Below the pieces are notes generated by a model. It did not search any database, was not told the DNA's origin, and saw nothing but the letters and a program-made list of their open reading frames with translations. Positions 13,065 through 40,665 of a stretch of 64,000 nucleotides of DNA are shown here, piece after piece; position 1 is the first letter of the stretch, and the number at the start of each line of letters is the position of its first letter. Source of the DNA: Letharia columbiana (taxonomy: Eukaryota > Ascomycota > Lecanoromycetes > Lecanorales > Parmeliaceae); contig NW_023501040.1 in assembly GCF_014066305.1 (NCBI RefSeq), positions 682,001 to 746,000 on the forward strand. Reading direction: 5' to 3'. The position numbers and the translations under genes were made by a program.

Positions 13065-16000
13065 TCATAGCGTAAATGAACAAGGCCCAACTGCTGAACC
13101 TAGTCGGGGAGTGACCGTGACTTTCTTGACGGGCAGGTCCGTGGTGTCTGTCGCCATATCCTTGGCGGAACGGAGAGAGTCTGCGACTTTCTTGACGGGC
13201 AGGTCCGTGGTGTCTGTCGCCTTATCTTTGGCGGAACGGAGAGGGTCTGCGACTTCCTTGACGGGCAGGTCCGTGGTGTCTGTCGCCATATCTTTGGCGG
13301 AACGGAGAGGGTCTGCGACTTCCTTGACGGGCAGGTCCGTGGTGTCTGTCGCCATATCTTTGGCGGAACGGAGAGGGTCTGCGACTTCCTTGACGGGGAG
13401 GTCCGTGGTGTCTGTTGCCATATCTTTGGTGGAACGGAGAGGGTCTGCGACTTCCTTGACGGGGAGGTCCGTGGTGTCTGTTGCCATATCTTTGGCGGAA
13501 CGGAGAGGGACTGCGACTTCCTTGACAGGCAGGTCCGTGGTATCGGTTGCTCTATCATCGGCAAATACATCGGGGTTCGTTCCCACGTCTTTGACCTCGT
13601 TGAGCGGCATCGTCGCAATAAGCTGGCCGGATGCCAACCCCTTGTAGGTATCCTCCGGTATCCCCGATAGTTCGTATGCAACGAGCGCTGGTGCTTCATA
13701 GAGTCGGCAGCCTGGACCTAGAGCCTTTAGGCGTCGGTCGATGGCGTCGGCCTTTGCTGGGGTACATTCGAATAGGCTCTCGAGGGCTTCTGACTGTTCC
13801 TTCGCTCGTCCCTTTCCTCGCACCTCAAGTGTCTCGAGGTTCTTTGCTTGACGCTCCAGTGACAGTAGCTTCTTCATCTTTCGACGCATGCTCCCTCTAG
13901 CATGCTCTCCAACATCCTCTGAACCGTCCGTCTCCCAGTTTGCTGCACCCGCTGCCTTCTTCTCTTCACTTGTCTCCGCTTGCTTCGACATCATTACACC
14001 CTGTTGCTGCGGCATGGAAACGTCGGACTGGTATTCGTCGCTCTGATCACGAGAGGAATAGCCAAGGTCTTGACGCAGTGATTTCTTAGCGCGGGGAGTC
14101 TTCTCCAAATCTAGACTGCCCTCATCTGTTGTGTACGTTGGTGACGCGGGCGGTGTGACCTGTGAAAGTATATTAGCATGTGTAGGGCGTCTGGGCTGGA
14201 TAAGGGCAGGAAGGGAGAGGAGCCCATAATGTGGGCAGAGCTGCTCACCTGGCTACGTTCGGCTTCCATGGGGGTCCCAATCTGTGATTGCAGCAACCTC
14301 GTACGCTCTTCAATATCTCGCTGCACTGCGTCCGATAAGTCGCTGTTTCTCTTCCAACCCTGCACTTTCTCCTCGGAGATCTTGGTCTGGAATGTCTTAT
14401 TTTCCTTTTCTTGGAATTCTTGATTGGCCTGCTCCAGCTGATCTGCCTTTCCTTGGAGTGCTTCCATGTCTGATTTTGTTGTCTGATGTTCCTCTTTTGC
14501 AGTTTTGAGCTCCGACTCTAGTAGGTCTGACAATCCTTGGAGTCCCTCCATGTCTGATATTAATGCCTGAATTTGCTCATTTGCAAGTTCGAGCTCCGAC
14601 TCTAGTTGGTCTGACAATCCTTGGAGTGCTTCCTTGTCTGACTTTGTTGCCTGATTTTGCTCTTTTGCGATTTCGAGCTCCGACTGTAGTTGGTCTGCCA
14701 ATCCCTGGAGTGCTTCCTTGTCTGACTTTGTTGACTGATGTTGCTCTTTTGCGGTTTTGAGCTGCGAATCTAGTTGATCTGCCAGTCCTTGAAGTGCCTC
14801 CATGTCTGACTTTGTTGACTGATGTTGCTCTTTTGCGGTTTTGAGCTGCGAATCTAGTTGATCTGCCAGTCCTTGGAGTGCCTCCATGTCTGACTTTGTT
14901 GACTGATGTTGCTCTTTTGCGGTTTTGAGCTCCGAATCTAGTTGCTCTGCCAGTCCTTGGACTGCCTTCATGTTCGACCCTGTTTCCTGAAGTTGCTCCT
15001 TGCTAGCTTTCTGATCCGACTCCAGCTTTTGCAGCATATCGTTATGGCTCTTTTCTTGATCTTTGAAGGCCTTGTTGGCTTGTTCTAGTCGCTCAGCCTT
15101 TTCCTGAAGGGCCTTCATCTCCGACTCAGCTTCTTGGTGTTGCTCTTGGGAAGCTTTGAGGTCTGACACCAGCTTCTCTCTGTCTAGCACGTCGTCATCT
15201 AACATGTCGACGTCGGTCTTTTCTCGATCTCGGAAGGTCTGGTTGGCCTGTTCTAGCTGAATCACTTGTTCTTGGAGTGCTTTCATGTCCCCTTCTGTAA
15301 TCTGATGTAGCTCTGCGCTGGCTCTGAAATCCGATTCCAGGTTCTGGATGTGCAGAATGTAGTCCTGGGTCTCATCTTGATCTTTTAAGGCTTGGTTGGC
15401 CTGTTCTAGTTGAACCAACTGTTCTTGGAGTGCTTTCATGTTCCCTTCTGTAATCTGATGTAGCTCTGTGCTGGCTTTGAGATCCGATTCCAGGTTCTGG
15501 ATGTGCAGAATGTAGTCCTGGGTCCCATCTTGATCTTTTAAGGCTTGGTTGGCCTGTTCCAGCTGGTGGGCCTTGACTTGAAGAGCCTTGATGTCAGACT
15601 TTGCTTTCTGATGGCGCTCTCTGCTAGTGTTGAGATCTGACTCCAGCTTCTCCTTGAGCAGCTTCCCGTCATGAACTTTATCTTGAAGATCTGCGACTTC
15701 TTCTGAACAGCCTTGGTGCTCCTCCCACTGTTCCAACGCTTGATGGAGTCCTATCTGCTCCGGTGTCCCTTGGACCAGCTCTTCCAACGAAGCGATTTGG
15801 TTCTGAGCCTTTTGTGCCTTTGATTGCCATTCGGAAATGGTCGCCTGAAGAGCATCTTTCTCTTCGGCAGGTTTTTCTACGGACCACCCATATTTTTCCC
15901 TCCACGCTTGTAGATCACGTGCCGCAGTTTCGTACCTACGTTCCGCATTCTTAAGCTGGCCCTTCTGGCTGCCGACAAGGTGATCTGCATGGCCTTTCGC

Positions 16001-29721: not shown

Positions 29722-30642
29722 TGCGAGATCTGTTCGTGATGTCGATAAGATGAAGGTTTTGAAAAGAGAAGGAGAATAAGGCAAGAGTGAGATCGGAATA
29801 TGTTCGAGTTATGGGTAAAGTGCAGTGCTGGAACCCAGACCTGAACAGAGGATGAATGGTAGGTAGGAGAAGGATAAAGGAGAAGGGCAGTGCTGGGACC
29901 CGATCTTTCTAGTAGACTTGTTCCATGTATCAAGAAGGTAGAGCGCAGTGCTGGAATCAAGAGATCGTATTTGAAAAGGGTCTTCGTCAATTTGTTGTAT
30001 GAGGAAGAGAATGTAAAGAGATGAAGTCTTGTCTAATGACTCGGGTACTAGTACAAACCACGCTAGTGAATGTCTTCACACAGTAGGTTAGATGGAGCCG
30101 AGCACAGTGAGTGAATCCGAGACACGACTTCACTTCGATCAATGCCTTTTGCGTGAAGAGTGAACATAGGATTAATCTCAAAAGAGAGGTCGTTGCATGA
30201 GATCCAGAATCTCTTTCGTTTTGGTCCAGAGATACTCACTATGGCTTTGATATCTGCAAGTATCTATTCTCAGCCTCTTGAGCATCGATCGGTTAATAAT
30301 TGAACTCAAGTCTCTATTTCACAGCTAATCAGATCATTGTAATGGCCCTTCATTACTCCACAAGATGTGTCAAACAAAGAAGCAAGCTTCATTCGAAGCC
30401 ACAGCACCAAGGTCACGTCTAAGGTGTCCCAGGCCTTGAAACCATCAGCCATGATCCTGACCCTTCCATGTCTCTCAAGACGTCCTTGGCCCGCTCTACG
30501 CAAACTTCAGAGTTAGTGTAATTCTCTTTGGGTAATACACCAAGACACGATACACTTTTGAAGAGCAGAATCTCCTTTCACTGCCTTCTCTTTGGGTAAT
30601 AGACCGAGAACCGAAACACATTTGCAGAGCAGAAGTATTCTT
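29722..30642. other. Intergenic stretch
   Basis: Promoter side of the BTB gene and 3' side of the fused glycosyltransferase-phosphatase gene. Repeated GTAATAcACCaAGA-like units occur at 30530-30615 (TTCTCTTTGGGTAATA twice). No gene seen. A short terminal exon of the fusion gene may lie at about 30580-30652. Confidence 0.4.
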
Positions 30643-32667
30643 TCACTGCCGAAACATGGCATTTCTCCTCAGTAACAAGATAATCCTGGAGGAATGAAGG
30701 TGCTCTCTGCTCCCGAAATCTGGAGTGCGACCCCGATTTTCCATCAAACAGACAGGATTTACACCGGAAATGTACGTACCGATTGTATCCTCGTCTACCC
30801 CAATCACACCGCGCAAGAAACCCTCCACCCCACCCCACTGTCTTTCCACCATCATTACTACGGCCCTCATAACCTCTTCTCTGGCACCCACCATCCTGCT
30901 AATACCATTGCTATCAGATCCTTTGAAGACTGGATGTCTCAACAACCGACCGACAGCTTCGGCCTTCCAAGCTGGCCCCAATCCTTGCTCGCTCAAATGG
31001 TACTCTTCGGCCACTACCTCAGCGGAGCAGCCCGCCAGTAACAGAATAATCATGATAAGGACACCGGTGCGATCTTTGCCCGCCGTGCAATTGATGAGGA
31101 TGGGCGTGGGAGAGGCGCTGCTAAGATGACGAAGGATTGCTTTGATGGCCGGTCCAGAGTGGAGAAGGGTAGAACGATAGGCCTTCTCAAATCCCTACGG
31201 AAGTCAGTTCCCGTGGTTCCATCCGAGAGGAAGATCTTGCCTCGGTGCCTTTGCTGGCATAGTCCTTGAATCGTACTGCCAGAGCTTCTGGAGCAAAGTC
31301 CTCGTCGCGGAAAACAGGAACCAAGATCCGCTCTGGTCCATCGGACGATCTTAACCAGCATTCGTACTGACCGTCTTCTCTCTTCGACCGGCCGACTTCT
31401 AAGAAGCTCCGCAGATCGAATATCTTCTTGATGCCCAATTTCTGAATCTGTAATTGACCTTCTTCAGTCAAATCATCTAAATATCCACTCCGATACACCA
31501 ACTTGCGGCGTACAGAAACACCGCATGAGACAGGATAGCCGCCAATGTCACGGAAATTCTTGACAGCTTCGACGTTGACGAAAGACGGGTGTGGCCAGTC
31601 GCGTATAGCGTCAAGGGAAGGAGTCATCTACATCAATGCCATCAGTCATCCTATCATACTTCGGGTTGGCCACATACCCTGTTCGAATGCCTCAAGTATT
31701 CCGTCACCGGTAGCCTCTCTAGGCTTGGAACATCCTTGTATCCGCTTAACCAAGGTAACCACATCTTACCATCACACCCACTCCCGCGTTCTAATCTCCT
31801 CTCAAGCGTACTGGTCACGGCGAAGGCTAACATCCCCAATTCTCTGAGTGGCTTATGGTTGTCTGTCACTCACAATCAGCATCGAAAAGAATATCATTGT
31901 CTGAGAGGCTCACTCTGTCTCGTCCCCAAGTCTACCTCCGCCAAGCCCTCCAGACCCACCATCCGCCATGTATCAATCAGCGTACCAATCTCCACTCCGT
32001 ACCCAACTGGAAAGTGCAGCTTCACCAGCAACGATCGGCGTGCTGCGAATTCCCCCGCCAGCGGCTGCCGAAATCCTGCGAGTTGGGGAAAGTGGATATT
32101 CAGCAGCGGCCTCGCCACAAGCTCATTCACGCGGCCGCCTTCGTGTGGGCGGTATTCGCCATTGGGTTGTTTGAAAGGCCGGTCGAAGCAGCCCCTAACC
32201 ATCTGGATAGTCTCATCCATAATTAAAGGTCCTAGGATACCTAGCAAGTGTGCTGGACTTGGATCCGCCGTGTCTCCATCCAGGAATGCCACGATATCGC
32301 CATCTGTGACTTGCAAAGCGCGCCACATGGCATCGCCTTTTCCCTGTGAAGGGCCTAGCTCTGAGGCGATTTCCGCTCGCTGGAGGACAGAGGCGCCATG
32401 AGCGGCTGCCACAGCACCTGTGTTGTCGGCGGATTTGTTGTCGATGGCGATGATAGAAGAGACGATGCCCGCCAATTTCAAGGGGTTGATTGTCTCTAGG
32501 ATAATGCCCGCGATGGTGTCTGCAACCTCGCGGGCAGGAATTACAACAACGATCTTCAGGTTACTGGCCGCGACAGCAGATGCGAGAAGAGGCACAGAAA
32601 AGTCTGTGTGGTGATATCGACAGGACTCGAGCCAATCTTGGAGGTCGGGGTCACCGTACGAACCCAT
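30643..32667 (-). CDS. Glucosyl-3-phosphoglycerate synthase (GT81) fused to a tyrosine-phosphatase-like domain
   Basis: Four exons (32667-31914, 31862-31678, 31627-31241, 31194-30643) give 625 residues. The N-terminal 300 residues follow bacterial GpgS closely: a GT-A nucleotide fold (LKIVVVIPAREVADTIAGI), the DxD-type metal site (FLDGDTADPSP), and GGRVNELVARPLLN, QPLAGEFAARRSLL, GYGVEIGTLIDTW. GpgS transfers glucose from NDP-glucose to 3-phosphoglycerate. A 50-bp intron (31677-31628, GTATGT donor, TGACTGA branch, GTAG acceptor) then leads in phase 0 into a PF13350-type phosphatase: VKNFRDIGGYPV and the Cys loop NCTAGKDRTGV (CX5R; the usual His before Cys is Asn). The intron 31240-31195 has a GC donor. 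The extreme C terminus is uncertain. If unspliced at 31677, these would be two genes 26 bp apart. Confidence 0.75.
31628..31677 (-). other. Intron that joins synthase and phosphatase
   Basis: Donor GTATGT, internal TGACTGATGG-like branch site, acceptor GATGTAG. Both flanking codons are complete (phase 0). The stop of the synthase frame (TGA at 31654) lies inside this intron. Confidence 0.7.
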
Positions 32668-34604: not shown

Positions 34605-37600
34605 CTAAAACGCCTCCTCTACATACCGCTCCCCCAGCATCTCCCCCACACGCCCGCCGAGAATTTTCTCAAACGTGCTTTTAACCTCCTCGGCGGCAAT
34701 CTTATTCGTGCAAACAAAGGCCATGCCCTCTTGCTTGAGCAACTTATTCCTCAAGTACTGCGGAGAGCGTCGGAGAACATCATATACACGAAGTTTCATC
34801 GGGTTGCTAAGTACAATGTCCAGCATGTCGATGAGGTTGAGCGACATAGCTTCGTTCAAAACATCGACCATTAACTTCAGGTCTGACTGCTTGAAACCAA
34901 GGAACAAGGAAATCCCTGATCCTTGGCTTGGGAGAGGGCGCCCCGTCGCGAGAGCGTTGCGGATTATGCCCATGCGCCATTGTAGGAGACAGCGTACAGG
35001 GCCAAAGCCAGCACCAGTTGCGACGACGATGAAGGGTCTCAGATGATTCTTGCGTAGTATGCTGCCCGATGGAGAGTCGACAATGCGGTACCTGAGCGAC
35101 GCTGGTATAGCGGAGTCTTTCATGAAGGTGTCACTGAAACGCCCCCCAGAAAGGACTTTGACCATGATATCGACCCCGCGTCCAGTGGATATACTCACTC
35201 GATTGTAGCTCGAAGAGTAGTGTCGAGACGAAGCGATAGAGTAGGTCCTAGTATGTAGCAGTGGCATGTTTTGACACAATTCGCATTTCTGACCATCACT
35301 CATGTGGACTATGCTGCTCTGGAGGCGCTCCAGGACCTGGTGGACCGATAGTCTGCTCAAGAGTGCTCTGGGCAGGCCTCTCTGAGATGCTAATTCTACT
35401 CCCTCAAGACATTCGACATCCGAGAATGGGAGTTCAAGGTCGACGTACTCCGTCAGAAACGATAGATAGGTCGGGTTTTTCCAATCCAAGCCCAAATCCA
35501 CATGGTCAGAACTTTTGACGCACAGCGACCGAAGCGCTTGGTTGACCTTTGATGGTGTATTTGATGGAAGGATCTGTATACAGCTCATCTCTTCAAAATG
35601 GTGGTTGTCGAAGTTAAATGTCACAAGCATCGATCCTTCGTGCGTCCCTGGTCTTGCGCCAACGAGCGAAAGCGAGCCAAGTGTCGAAAGCAGTCGGTCC
35701 TGGTAATCCTCGTACTTTCGACCGAGCTCTACCATTGGGGTCACCCTCACGAATACGGCGGCTTGCTTGTAATCGGTTGGCGATCTTATTACGGCTGTTG
35801 AAAGGCTTTCGATGCTTTGATCAACAATGCTGGGCTGTAGCTTGTTCAACCAGAATTTCAAAGCGGAAAATGGGAGCGGGTCCACGGCCATATCCGCCTG
35901 GAACACACCAGCAGCCAATGGATAACCTCCAACTTGCATCAAATGGTCGTTGACCTTTATTGCCGCCCCGTTGTAGGTAGTAGAGTAACGACTGTCACCA
36001 TTACCAAAAACAGCGAATTTGAAACCCTGAACGCGATCCATGAGTCGCCACGATAACATATTTTCGCAGAGTTTGGAAAGACTAAGTCCATTCGACGGAA
36101 TCTCGCCTTGGCCAGAGCTACTGACGACTAACAAGAGGATGTTTCCCGCGGTGAGATCAGAGGCCTGCAAGCTATTCAAGGGCTCGGAACGAGAGCATAA
36201 ATGTAGACCGGAGGAATCTTTGATGAGAATGTTCAACCATTGGTGAAGCTTGTTGGCAAGCCTTTCTGCGATTATTCCAGCACTGCAGAAGAAAACTGAA
36301 ATAAACCGATTGCTATTTGTCGGTGACTGTACTTCATGGGTCCGTCGTAACAGCTGCAGGTTATTTCGGAGAAGAAGACTCTCGCTATGCTCAGTCGTGG
36401 GCCCTGTTTCTATCTCGTTCTTAGACTCGTTTACTTCCTTCTGGGTACGATGGCACAGTTGCAGCCTATTCTGTCTAAGAAAACTCTCGGTTTGCTGATT
36501 CATGGTCCCTGTGTCTGTCCTCTTTTCTGCCGCAATTGCCGTCGGTTCTTTAACGACGGCCATGGGTTTCAATATCTGGGCGCCAGCAGGACCTTTCTGC
36601 TTCTCCCTTCTCCAGACCTTGATCGGGTCTTGCCCGTGTTTGCAAATCATAGGCTTCGGCTGGTAATTGGGAGCGCCGCCCCGATGCCAAAGAGGAATGA
36701 TGGAACCTTGTGGTGGGGCCAGCCAGTAAGGATCCGCCGGTAGTCTGTACCCATTTCTCTCTCTGAAGTCATCATCGTATCGACACCACTTCATTGAGGC
36801 AGTGAGAGTATCAGTGATGTTGACTTTTGCTTGAACGAAAGACCAATGAACTGCGTAGTTCAACTCCGCTTGGGCTCGTGACAGCATTGAAAGCTTTTCA
36901 TACTCTGGAAGGTCCTCGAAGACCTCGAAATCGCCATGCAGCTTATCGCGAGTAAGCCCAAGGGCATCGATGATATCCGGGAGGACATTGTAACGGAACG
37001 AATCGGCCAAGTCACGAACCCCTATTTCGGCATCCATGAACCTTGTATTGTGAGCTATCAAGAGGACAAAAAGATAGACGAGTGTACACACCAGCCAATG
37101 AAAGGTGCTGCAGTGTACTGAACTCCGCCAATATCAAAACCCAGTCTCGTTAGTGCTGGAAAAGCAACCCATTTCAGGTCCAGCCTTTCAAACTCGGTAG
37201 TGTACTTAGGATGTCGAATACTGACCAATTTTCGAAGATATGTAGGAAGCTCGATCATGGCTGGACTGTCGCCCTCTGCCATTGCAACAAGCGGTAAAAG
37301 ATCCCACCGGCCCCGTGGCTCAGGAGGCTGCCACCCGAGATCGATCATTGCATTTGTTATTTCAACACTCGCTGGGTCCCCCAAGACTGTACCGTCCTTG
37401 GGGTCGTATCCAGCGAATTGGAGGACTTGATGGTTCCAGATCATTGGTCCTCTAGCGTTGACGTTGCGTGGTGGAAATACGAACACTGTGGGCTGGACAT
37501 TGCCTCCATTGAAGGCATCGGAAACTCCTTTGACCAACTCGGTAACCATTTCTGCACTCGAGGTGACCCTTCGCAGGTCGCAAAGCTTAAGCTCCTCGCA

Positions 37601-38151
37601 ATGGGATCGCATGATGCACTTCCTTGCATTTCTCCAAGCTCGACGAATACCAAATTCGAGCTCTTGGTGCGTCTGTGTCCAAGTTCCACCAAGGTTGGCG
37701 CACGAATGATCTTCTTGTACGACACCTTTGACTGAACCAGCTTTGATCTCTCCCTGCACCTGGTCCCAGCGACTCTGGAATGCGTCTTCGCTGTCATAGA
37801 AACCTTCCCCACGGAGGACTCGTAGGAAATCTACTGCTTCTTGCTCGACTACCTGAAGCGAACGGTTTTCGCCCACTATTAAAGATATAGAAATTAGTAC
37901 CTCATGGGATCACGAAGGGGCAGAAGAAAGGATTTGTCACAACATCGTGTCTTACGACCCAAATTCTGGCACTCATAAGGGGAGCAGGCCTCCGATATAT
38001 ACGTACCTCTTGGCTCATCTGTGTGGGTCATTCGACCTGATTGGCAAAAATCCCTTGTGCAGCCTGTCGATGCCAGTATTGTGTGCTTGTTACGGATCCG
38101 CTGAAGTTCAGGGTTCAGCACCGGGCACGAAGGATACTGCGGTGGAGACAT
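34605..38151 (-). CDS. Fungal nitric oxide synthase
   Basis: Three exons (38151-38007, 37875-37092, 37041-34605) join in frame to 1121 residues. N terminus: GCTRDFC, a CX4C zinc-tetrathiolate motif used in the NOS dimer, then RMTHTDEPR. The oxygenase domain has the heme-ligand segment AWRNARKCIMRS, WNHQVLQFAGY, IGWFMDAEIGVRDLAD (the Glu binds the arginine guanidinium group) and WHRGGAPNYQPKP. It would oxidise L-arginine to citrulline and NO. After a linker holding two copies of an RxxLQLxxRTxE unit come flavodoxin-like (SSSGQGEIPSNG, FAVFGNGDSRY), FAD (RTYSIASS) and NADP-like (VVATGAGFGPVRCLLQWR) regions. The FMN phosphate loop (CSAGIIAE) and the NADP end (FVCTN instead of YVCGD) are altered. 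The length is near that of animal NOS. Confidence 0.85.
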
Positions 38152-38603: not shown

Positions 38604-40665
38604 TTAGGTACCGAACGCCAATCGACTTTGACCCTTCTCCATCTTCTTTTGCATGGCGCCATTACTTCCTTTGGCGACCACGGACTTTTTGTTGGACCCT
38701 GAAGATGAAGCGCTCCTATGGGGATCTGATCGAGAAAAAATAGACTTTTCTTTAGCTTGAAGTTCCCGCGCCAAGTGCCAGTCTTCATGCTCCTCCTTAA
38801 CTGCCATCGGAAATTTCTTTCCGCACGCATCACAGAAATACGTCGTTATAGGAGCCTGGTGGAATGGGGCTCCTGCGCTCCTCCCAGCCATCTCATCCAG
38901 AGTAATTACCGATTCGTCTTCGTCTTGCTTAGCCGGACCCGTGTCTTGTGGTGACAAAGAATCCGCTTCTTCTAGATCCGCATTCTGAGCATCGGAAAGT
39001 TCCTCTTCGTGGCTTTCTTGCCTTGAGAAGAAATGTTGAATCGCTCCATGATCGAGTTTCCGTCTCTTGTCGGGCTCATCGTTCTCCTTACCCCATTCGT
39101 AGCCATCAGCATCACGGGTACTGGGCATCATGGCTTTGGCTTCCTCTCCTCTGACCAGGAAGCTTCCTATGCCACGATTGCCGGTTGGCCCATCTTCGAA
39201 ACCACCAACGCTTAGCTGTAGGTTACTACAAGGCCAAGCTCTGCCGTCTATAACAATCTGGCCGAGAAGATTCTTGGCAATGTCGAAGAGCAAGGTCTCG
39301 TCAATAGGCCTCCCACTAGGAATAGAAGCTTGGCGTGACCGCATTTGTGCGCCTTGACGATGGTGTAGACTGAGAACTTTTGGTCTCCGTTTGTTCTCGA
39401 GTACACCTTCCTCCACCAGTCTAGACTGTATATCGGCTACGAATATCCGTAGCCATCTGACTGCTTGTTCGGAGGTATTAATGGTAGGACGAAATGATTT
39501 GGCCGAGAGCATAGACTTTATCTGGGTCCGAGCGTTAACTTCGCTCGAATCCTCGCCGCGAATGATATGGTAGACCCAAGTTCCGGTGTCGTCTCCTAAC
39601 TTGGATTTCAATTGCTCGATAGGTGCTGCGAGCAATTCCTTGACTTGATCCGTTCCAAATTTATTGACCACTTCATCGCCTAGTTTTCCACCCAAATTCC
39701 GAATCTTAGTGAATTTGAAACCGCCCATAAATTGCTGCACTGCCCGATTTCGTACAATAGTTTGCTGGTTGGGCTTTTTGTGCGCCGATCCCAGTTTGGC
39801 AATCATTTTGTTCCGAGCTATTCCGGCAGAGCAAGTATACTTCAGTCGCTCTCGAACAGCAGCACGTACTGAGCGTACAATCTCAGATCCAAGCAATATA
39901 GCAATATCGTCCCAATCGGGATCATCATCTTCTGTTTCTAAAGAGTCCAGATCCACTAAAGCATCTGTATTCCAATCGAGCGCTGTAGTGGGAGGCCGAG
40001 GCAGAAATTCGGTTGGGTCGTCATATGGGGCTGGACCACTGATCTCTGGGTATCTCTCGAGGAGGATAGAATGTATCTGGGATGACAGGTCCAGGAAGAC
40101 CTCGTCTACACTAGCCTTCTCGACTCTTTGCAGTGGCGGTGCTGGTAGCACATCCTTTATACAGGCCAGGATCCTTCTCGACTCGAGCCGATATGGATCG
40201 AGTGAAACTTTGTGGGTGGCAATATGGGCGAAAGCATCTTTGTGGTAAGCCCACTTCTCATCTCCTTCCTTCCAAGTCGCCACATGTTGCATGATTAGGT
40301 CCGGACAAAGTTTTCTTGCTTCCGTGATAGTAATATGCCTGTTGAGGCCAAACTTCCTGGCCGGGTAATTGATCGCAATGAGGCCTTGCCATTGCTAATC
40401 CAGTGTCAGCGCTGGCTTCTGAAATAGTGTACAGCAGAGGACCTACTTGAACGGCGAGGGGCTGCTCCTCCGGAATGCATAACCGTACACCTTCGCATTG
40501 TGCATAGAACGCATCCAAGTCTATGTGGGCAATGACTCGAAGCGGACATGTGTTAGAGGAGAGAGCAAGTTGGGCGAGATGCTTGTAGGTGAATCGAGAC
40601 TTGCGTCTGCGGCCCGCGGCGGGGGAGATGGGCGAAGAGGCAAAAAATGGTTGTGAGGAAGACAT
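38604..40665 (-). CDS. RAD30: DNA polymerase eta (Rad30)
   Basis: Two exons (40665-40447, 40394-38604) join across a 52-bp phase-0 intron to 669 residues. Y-family polymerase motifs are in order: RVIAHIDLDAFYAQCE (motif with metal-binding Asp), INYPARKFGLNRHITITEA, KASVDEVFLDLS (the second catalytic Asp-Glu), CSAGIARNKMIAKLGS and FKFTKIRNLGGKLG. The C terminus has a UBZ-type ubiquitin-binding zinc finger (YFCDACGKKFPM...HEDWH) and ends in a short QSRLAFGT tail that could be a PCNA-binding peptide. Pol eta copies past UV photodimers in the nucleus and is recruited by ubiquitinated PCNA. An acidic Ser-rich region separates the finger from the core. Neighbouring genes are unrelated. Confidence 0.92.

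Follow-up and report, generated by a model that had tools for sequence, protein, structure and literature searches.

Introduction

A stretch of 64,000 nucleotides from Letharia columbiana (contig NW_023501040.1, positions 682,001 to 746,000; hereafter the window) carries on its minus strand a gene that appears to join two enzymes, a glycosyltransferase of family GT81 resembling the bacterial synthase GpgS and a phosphatase with a CX5R motif. This raises the question of whether the two halves form one protein, where each of them came from and what such a protein would make. GT81 is described as restricted to prokaryotes in a 2020 survey of GT-A enzymes (PMC7185993).

Computational analysis of the window gave a gene model, a fusion, two domain families with conserved catalytic residues and a separate kinship for each half, from which we infer the substrates, that both reactions are coupled and that the product serves as a compatible solute. 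The protein is probably a single-chain, two-step hexosyl-3-phosphoglycerate synthase and phosphatase. The GT81 domain would act as a retaining transferase that takes a hexose from a nucleotide sugar and places it on 3-phosphoglycerate, so that glucosyl- or mannosyl-3-phosphoglycerate results, and the CX5R phosphatase would then strip the phosphate to leave the solute glucosyl- or mannosylglycerate. The GT81 gene probably came from a Patulibacter-like actinobacterium and was joined to a kind of phosphatase already present in fungi. A compatible solute would suit a lichen, which undergoes drying and rewetting.

A single chain in Letharia and in other fungi

The initial annotation, made from the DNA alone, described a GpgS-like frame with the motifs GGRVNELVARP, QPLAGEF and GYGVEIGTLIDT, a second frame with a CX5R motif and, joining them, a 50-base-pair (bp) intron in phase 0 at 31677-31628. 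Both frames are present on the minus strand where it placed them, the CX5R motif reading CTAGKDR, and the intron is exactly 50 bp long, with boundaries GTATGT...ATGTAG. Without splicing, the GpgS-like frame terminates within this intron, at 31654. When the surrounding 141 bases were tested for introns of 40-120 bp, a single alternative pair of sites kept the frame open, as an 80-bp intron whose donor, GTGACG, we judge to be weaker.

The fusion of GT81 synthase and phosphatase is real, as is confirmed by proteins from other fungi. Our protein searches cover the best 120 of 1450, 436 and 5795 matches, and among those listed from the first search (the best 120 of 1450) at least ten named fungi have the phosphatase family PF13350 and the GT81 half in one protein, so that the domain pair which the initial annotation had suggested seeking elsewhere does recur. 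These fungi are Pseudevernia consocians (92% identity), Lecanora helva, Psora crenata, Cladosporium fusiforme, Neodothiora populina, Aspergillus lucknowensis, A. nanangensis, A. heteromorphus, Penicillium atrosanguineum and a Penicillium sp., which we take to represent the Lecanoromycetes, Dothideomycetes and Eurotiomycetes. Of a further 26 proteins (P0011-P0036), 17 hold GT81 and the start of the phosphatase in one chain, with alignments ending at residues 437-453, around intron 3; one of these, P0025, is an annotated protein, the others being mostly open reading frames (ORFs). Since these chains run across the domain junction, the fusion is independent of the call of intron 2.

The extent of the gene is set by a public protein of 605 residues, P0001, which is 99% identical to the corrected product of the window and differs from it at three positions. 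Splicing of 31913-31863, 31677-31628 and 31240-31195 yields a chain of 625 residues that runs to a stop at 30643, which is the length and stop given earlier. P0001, however, ends in ...DTIERAKDVLRDMEGSGSWLMVSRPGTP, and the same ending is encoded in the window by the exon at 30495-30419, behind a fourth intron, so that the last 45 residues of the 625-residue reading are most likely intron. The single protein proposed at the outset thus stands, with 605 residues in place of 625, and the span of the feature is corrected from 30643-32667 to 30419-32667 (Table 1).

P0001 was itself most likely read from a spliced transcript, because it spans four junctions while other ORFs from the same source, labelled lgn, mostly look unspliced. 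Specifically, residue 438, close beside the site of intron 3, is where the alignments of P0011, P0013, P0015, P0016, P0018, P0020 and P0022 from this source end, and P0019 and P0021, also lgn, continue there into unrelated residues; P0008 has an insertion at this place, and P0007, of the same lgn source as P0001, crosses it without one. Intron 3 has a GC-AG boundary, and its position is apparently common to many other fungi.

Table 1. Exons and introns of the fused gene, in window positions.
Feature	Position	Strand	Boundaries and phase	Content
Whole coding region, fused gene	30419..32667	-		5 exons, 4 introns, 605 residues; P0001 spans all 4 junctions
Exon 1	31914..32667	-		Most of GT81 synthase domain, residues 1-251
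Intron 1	31863..31913	-	51 bp, GTGAGC...TGACAG, phase 1	
Exon 2	31678..31862	-		End of GT81 domain and start of linker, to residue 313
Intron 2	31628..31677	-	50 bp, GTATGT...ATGTAG, phase 0	Between both domains; intron of the initial annotation
Exon 3	31241..31627	-		Linker and first half of PF13350 phosphatase domain, residues 314-442
Intron 3	31195..31240	-	46 bp, GC-AG type (GCAAGA...CCGTAG), phase 0	After residue 442
Exon 4	30780..31194	-		Second half of phosphatase domain, with C478-X5-R484
Intron 4	30496..30779	-	284 bp, GTACGT...GCGTAG, phase 1	Holds the earlier stop at 30643
Exon 5	30419..30495	-		Final 25 residues and stop

The GT81 half and its sugar donor

The N-terminal half matches the GT81 profile NF010496 with 307.7 bits against a cut-off of 262 (residues 9-279 of the 625-residue model), and the domain extends over about residues 7-312; when the structure comparison was repeated, few rows reached past residue 312. 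It has the fold of solved GT81 members, and its top match by both sequence and structure is MpgS of Rubrobacter xylanophilus (3f1y and 3o3p). In the numbering of mycobacterial GpgS, K114, D134, D136, R185, Y229 and E232 are kept in the window protein, and the DXD motif, the Lys114-Asp134-Glu232 network and Arg185 are kept in all 38 rows of the fungal clade, 13 of which are ORFs called fungal from their position in the tree, and which exclude P0030, an annotation without the Arg185 stretch. The bifunctional enzyme proposed in the initial annotation is borne out to the extent that GT81 is joined to a phosphatase and the main catalytic residues of both are intact; naming glucose as the sugar, and assigning a substrate to the phosphatase, went further than the data.

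The choice of sugar turns on the donor pocket. In M. tuberculosis GpgS, Ser81 and Ser210 are said in PMC2581804 to work against guanine/GDP and mannose, respectively. Neither marker of this glucose-specific subtype is found in the window protein, which has Asn77 at the Ser81 place (fungal-clade rows: A 32, N 5 with the window included, V 1, of 38) and Ala204 at the Ser210 place (PLSGE), where all 38 rows have Ala; in Rubrobacter MpgS both places are Ala. Nor is the sugar settled by the NCBI 'GpgS equivalog' model, since a homolog from Rubrobacter taiwanensis passes it too. With a donor pocket and nearest solved structure closer to Rubrobacter MpgS than to mycobacterial GpgS, glucosylglycerate is one option for the product.

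Mannosylglycerate made from GDP-mannose is the other, a sub-case of the single-chain enzyme and not an alternative to it, which we put forward tentatively. It draws on the Ala that prevails at both serine places, given the argument of PMC2581804 cited above, and on R. xylanophilus MpgS being the best match. However, M. hassiacum GpgS, named a glucosyl enzyme and solved with UDP-glucose, has Gly at the Ser210 place, so that this place alone is not decisive, and at R101 all 38 fungal-clade rows share Arg with mycobacterial GpgS, where R. xylanophilus has Glu. Also counted against a mannosyl product is a 2011 paper which, going by its title, reportedly concerns a Rubrobacter enzyme of dual specificity. 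An MpgS of the PF09488 type was sought and not found.

The phosphatase half

The C-terminal half is PF13350 (Y_phosphatase3), the type to which it had been assigned, with 183.9 bits against a gathering score of 22.2; the domain occupies about residues 330-589. Its CX5R P-loop, with GKDRTG, is intact (C478 and R484); all 17 fused or fragment rows keep C478 and G481-G486, and the 51 other rows all have the same G481-G486. Two positions differ between these groups. At residue 477, which precedes the catalytic Cys, the window protein has Asn and the fused or fragment rows have N 9, H 7 and Y 1, against His in 49 of the 51 others; at position 424, 14 of the 17 have F or W and one has Tyr, against Tyr in 39 of the 51. 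These shifts fit a new substrate, without proving it. An Asn before the catalytic Cys is also found in Sac phosphatases. The window and Pseudevernia proteins have Asn at two active-site positions, that of the synthase's acceptor Thr (N181) and that of the His preceding the catalytic Cys (N477).

That the phosphatase acts on the product of the synthase is suggested by the conserved fusion. Alternatively, the synthase could make hexosyl-3-phosphoglycerate but be joined to a phosphatase that has a regulatory role or has phosphoinositides or phosphoproteins as substrates, the solute being completed by another phosphatase of the cell. The closest solved structures (PtpB and a Clostridioides difficile protein tyrosine phosphatase, PTP), a P-loop that is the same in the 17 and the 51 rows, and the lack of such a phosphatase beside the synthase in bacterial kin (covered sequence of 80 gpgS loci, L006-L085) would all agree with this. 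We nevertheless consider it unlikely, as the fusion has been retained with an intact CX5R across Lecanora, Cladosporium and Aspergillus, positions 477 and 424, nearly constant or common elsewhere, are altered in the fused rows, and the synthase product bears one phosphate that needs removal.

Separate kinship of the two halves

The bacterial loci were collected by scanning for gpgS with GKGDAMW and QPLAGEFA as patterns, a choice biased towards close relatives; 80 of 239 were kept, and 43 of these (L006-L048) entered a 97-row GT81 tree. In this tree all 25 fused and 13 close rows form one clade (support of 100 in the Shimodaira-Hasegawa-like approximate likelihood ratio test, SH-aLRT), joined to a Patulibacter group (96). 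For more careful trees the GT81 rows were thinned from 97 to 62 and the PTP rows from 68 to 53. The 62-row tree recovers the fungal clade (19 rows) at 100/100 and its union with seven Patulibacter-group rows at 100/98, the fungal rows being one clade nested among bacterial ones. This sister relationship argues for an old transfer from bacterium to fungus, which the initial annotation had raised as a possibility.

The phosphatase halves, together with lichen exon fragments, form one clade of 16 rows in the 53-row tree (94/81), within eukaryotic, mostly fungal PF13350, and three bacterial PF13350 rows fall outside the eukaryotic ones (100/100). A larger, quick tree of the unthinned PTP rows is concordant, with weaker SH-aLRT support (89 for the fused clade, and 93) and long branches at its base. 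The bacterial sample amounts to four sequences in the quick tree and three in the careful one, all from genomes picked for gpgS; PF13350 occurs in five of ten such genomes, in one of them weakly, and about 0.7 Mb separates it from gpgS in Patulibacter minatonensis. The covered sequence of the 80 bacterial gpgS loci has no PF13350-like frame. We reject a joint bacterial transfer of both domains, on the placement of the bacterial PF13350 rows, on these loci as far as covered and on the scores that follow.

Scores against a model of the fused phosphatase run from 89 to 97 bits for four bacterial PF13350 proteins and from 151 to 264 for 11 named fungal stand-alone proteins and P0150. Against this rejection, the two other PF13350 genes of the window genome score 68-71 bits per open frame (one being split over two), below the bacterial proteins, and this indicates that the fungal PF13350 family is itself mixed. 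Taken together, bacterial kin for GT81, fungal kin for the phosphatase and gpgS loci without PF13350 point to a transferred synthase that was joined to a host phosphatase. The chimera was probably built once in ascomycetes, and either predates the split of the classes listed above or passed among them later.

Weighing the proposed enzyme

Several observations weigh against the proposed two-step enzyme. Thr187, the acceptor residue, is replaced by Asn181 in the window protein, and the canonical HCX5R motif of tyrosine phosphatases is broken by Asn477; these changes may have altered substrate or rate. At Glu54, through which mycobacterial GpgS contacts the ribose, all 38 fungal-clade rows have Val, and the metal-side His258 aligns with Asn252, a His standing two residues further on (H254, a column with a gap in three rows); both features are as in Rubrobacter MpgS. 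The nearest solved structures of the phosphatase half are, as noted, named as protein tyrosine phosphatases, and bacterial sampling in the trees is uneven. A structure model of P0001 has two confident domains (predicted local distance difference test, pLDDT, 90.8) in an uncertain mutual orientation (predicted template modelling score, pTM, 0.60), so that channelling is not to be judged from it. A search with PF22422 for a glucosylglycerate-degrading enzyme recognised none, its two matches fitting GH63 and trehalase better. A literature search over titles and the starts of abstracts returned no fungal glucosylglycerate enzyme, and a survey of horizontal gene transfer in fungi (PMC11708051) may list the gene.

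The change at the acceptor position could also mean that in the lichen lineage the GT81 half is inactive or uses another acceptor. Asn is found there in the window protein, P0001, Pseudevernia and P0241 (fungal clade: T 32, N 4, S 2, of 38), against Thr in all 8 Patulibacter-group rows and in 50 of the 51 remaining bacterial or environmental ones. This we hold to be improbable, given that the six residues listed above (K114, D134, D136, R185, Y229 and E232) are retained, that Asn may still donate a hydrogen bond and that the window product, 92% identical to that of Pseudevernia, has no decay. Two adjacent genes misread as one, the second starting at the ATG (31627) that stands immediately after the intron 2 acceptor, can be dismissed with near certainty on P0001 and the ten named fused homologs, on the 17 of the 26 proteins P0011-P0036 that cross the junction in one chain and on P0006, whose alignment has no Met between both domains.

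The single-chain hexosyl-3-phosphoglycerate enzyme can be placed within a wider proposal, namely that it is an ascomycete hexosylglycerate enzyme and the first eukaryotic GT81 to be described, in which an actinobacterial gene and a native PTP-superfamily phosphatase, converted to a sugar-phosphoglycerate phosphatase, make an unsought fungal stress solute. For this whole we see the chances as evenly balanced. The automated name of the Aspergillus protein P0029 starts 'Glucosyl-3-', so the domain has already been noticed by automated annotation. If true, the fused fungal GT81 would bring a new solute into fungal stress physiology, a CX5R phosphatase with an unusual small-molecule substrate, a clear example of gene transfer in which fusion with a host gene completes a pathway, and a single-enzyme route to glucosyl- or mannosylglycerate.

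Genomic context

Contamination is rejected on the introns, the neighbouring genes and the 92% identical Pseudevernia protein, itself from a metagenome-assembled genome. One neighbour, at 38604-40394 on the minus strand, encodes an eta-like DNA polymerase of the Y family that has a UBZ zinc finger; it is an ordinary fungal gene and so speaks against contamination. Another is a nitric oxide synthase gene at 34605-37909, upstream of the fused gene and on the same minus strand, in which two adjoining frames match PF02898 (1.9e-66 and 1.2e-16), with a flavodoxin domain besides. Elsewhere in the window, an ORF at 13065-14252 on the minus strand repeats a 22-residue unit like ATDTTDLPVKEVADPLRSAKDM about seven times in tandem.

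Comparison with known systems

The nearest kin of the fungal GT81 clade, from Solirubrobacterales (Patulibacter), have 58-61% identity to exon 1; in several of these relatives (P0042 and L007 among them) GT81 is preceded by a GT2-like domain at the N-terminus, the whole chain having about 530-595 residues. No PF13350 was seen near the GT81 genes of this group in the loci covered. R. xylanophilus MpgS/GpgS (GT81; 3f1y, 3kia, 3o3p) is bacterial and stand-alone, without a phosphatase domain, and has Glu at the place of Arg101. The C-terminal half shares its domain and P-loop with stand-alone fungal PF13350 phosphatases, PtpB and C. difficile PTP (8dhi), none of which is fused. We know of no PF13350 phosphatase that acts on a hexosylphosphoglycerate.

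The GpgP of mycobacteria (Rv2419c) is a histidine phosphatase and thus a different protein from the phosphatase half described here. With GpgS (Rv1208; M. hassiacum, 7p5l) it follows the same two-step logic as proposed here; K114, D134, D136, E232 and R185 are shared, and the fused protein passes the NCBI GpgS model. In M. tuberculosis the two steps belong to two proteins, GpgS (Rv1208) and GpgP from Rv2419c, according to PMC4555173. The mycobacterial system thus has two genes where Letharia has one, and its Glu54, Ser81 and Ser210 are not kept in the window protein. A precedent for fusion is bacterial GgpPS, described in PMC10873239 as synthase and phosphatase in one chain for glucosylglycerol. 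It differs from the window enzyme in making another solute, in having the phosphatase first and in being bacterial. MgsD of Dehalococcoides is a fused enzyme for mannosylglycerate, built from other enzyme families.
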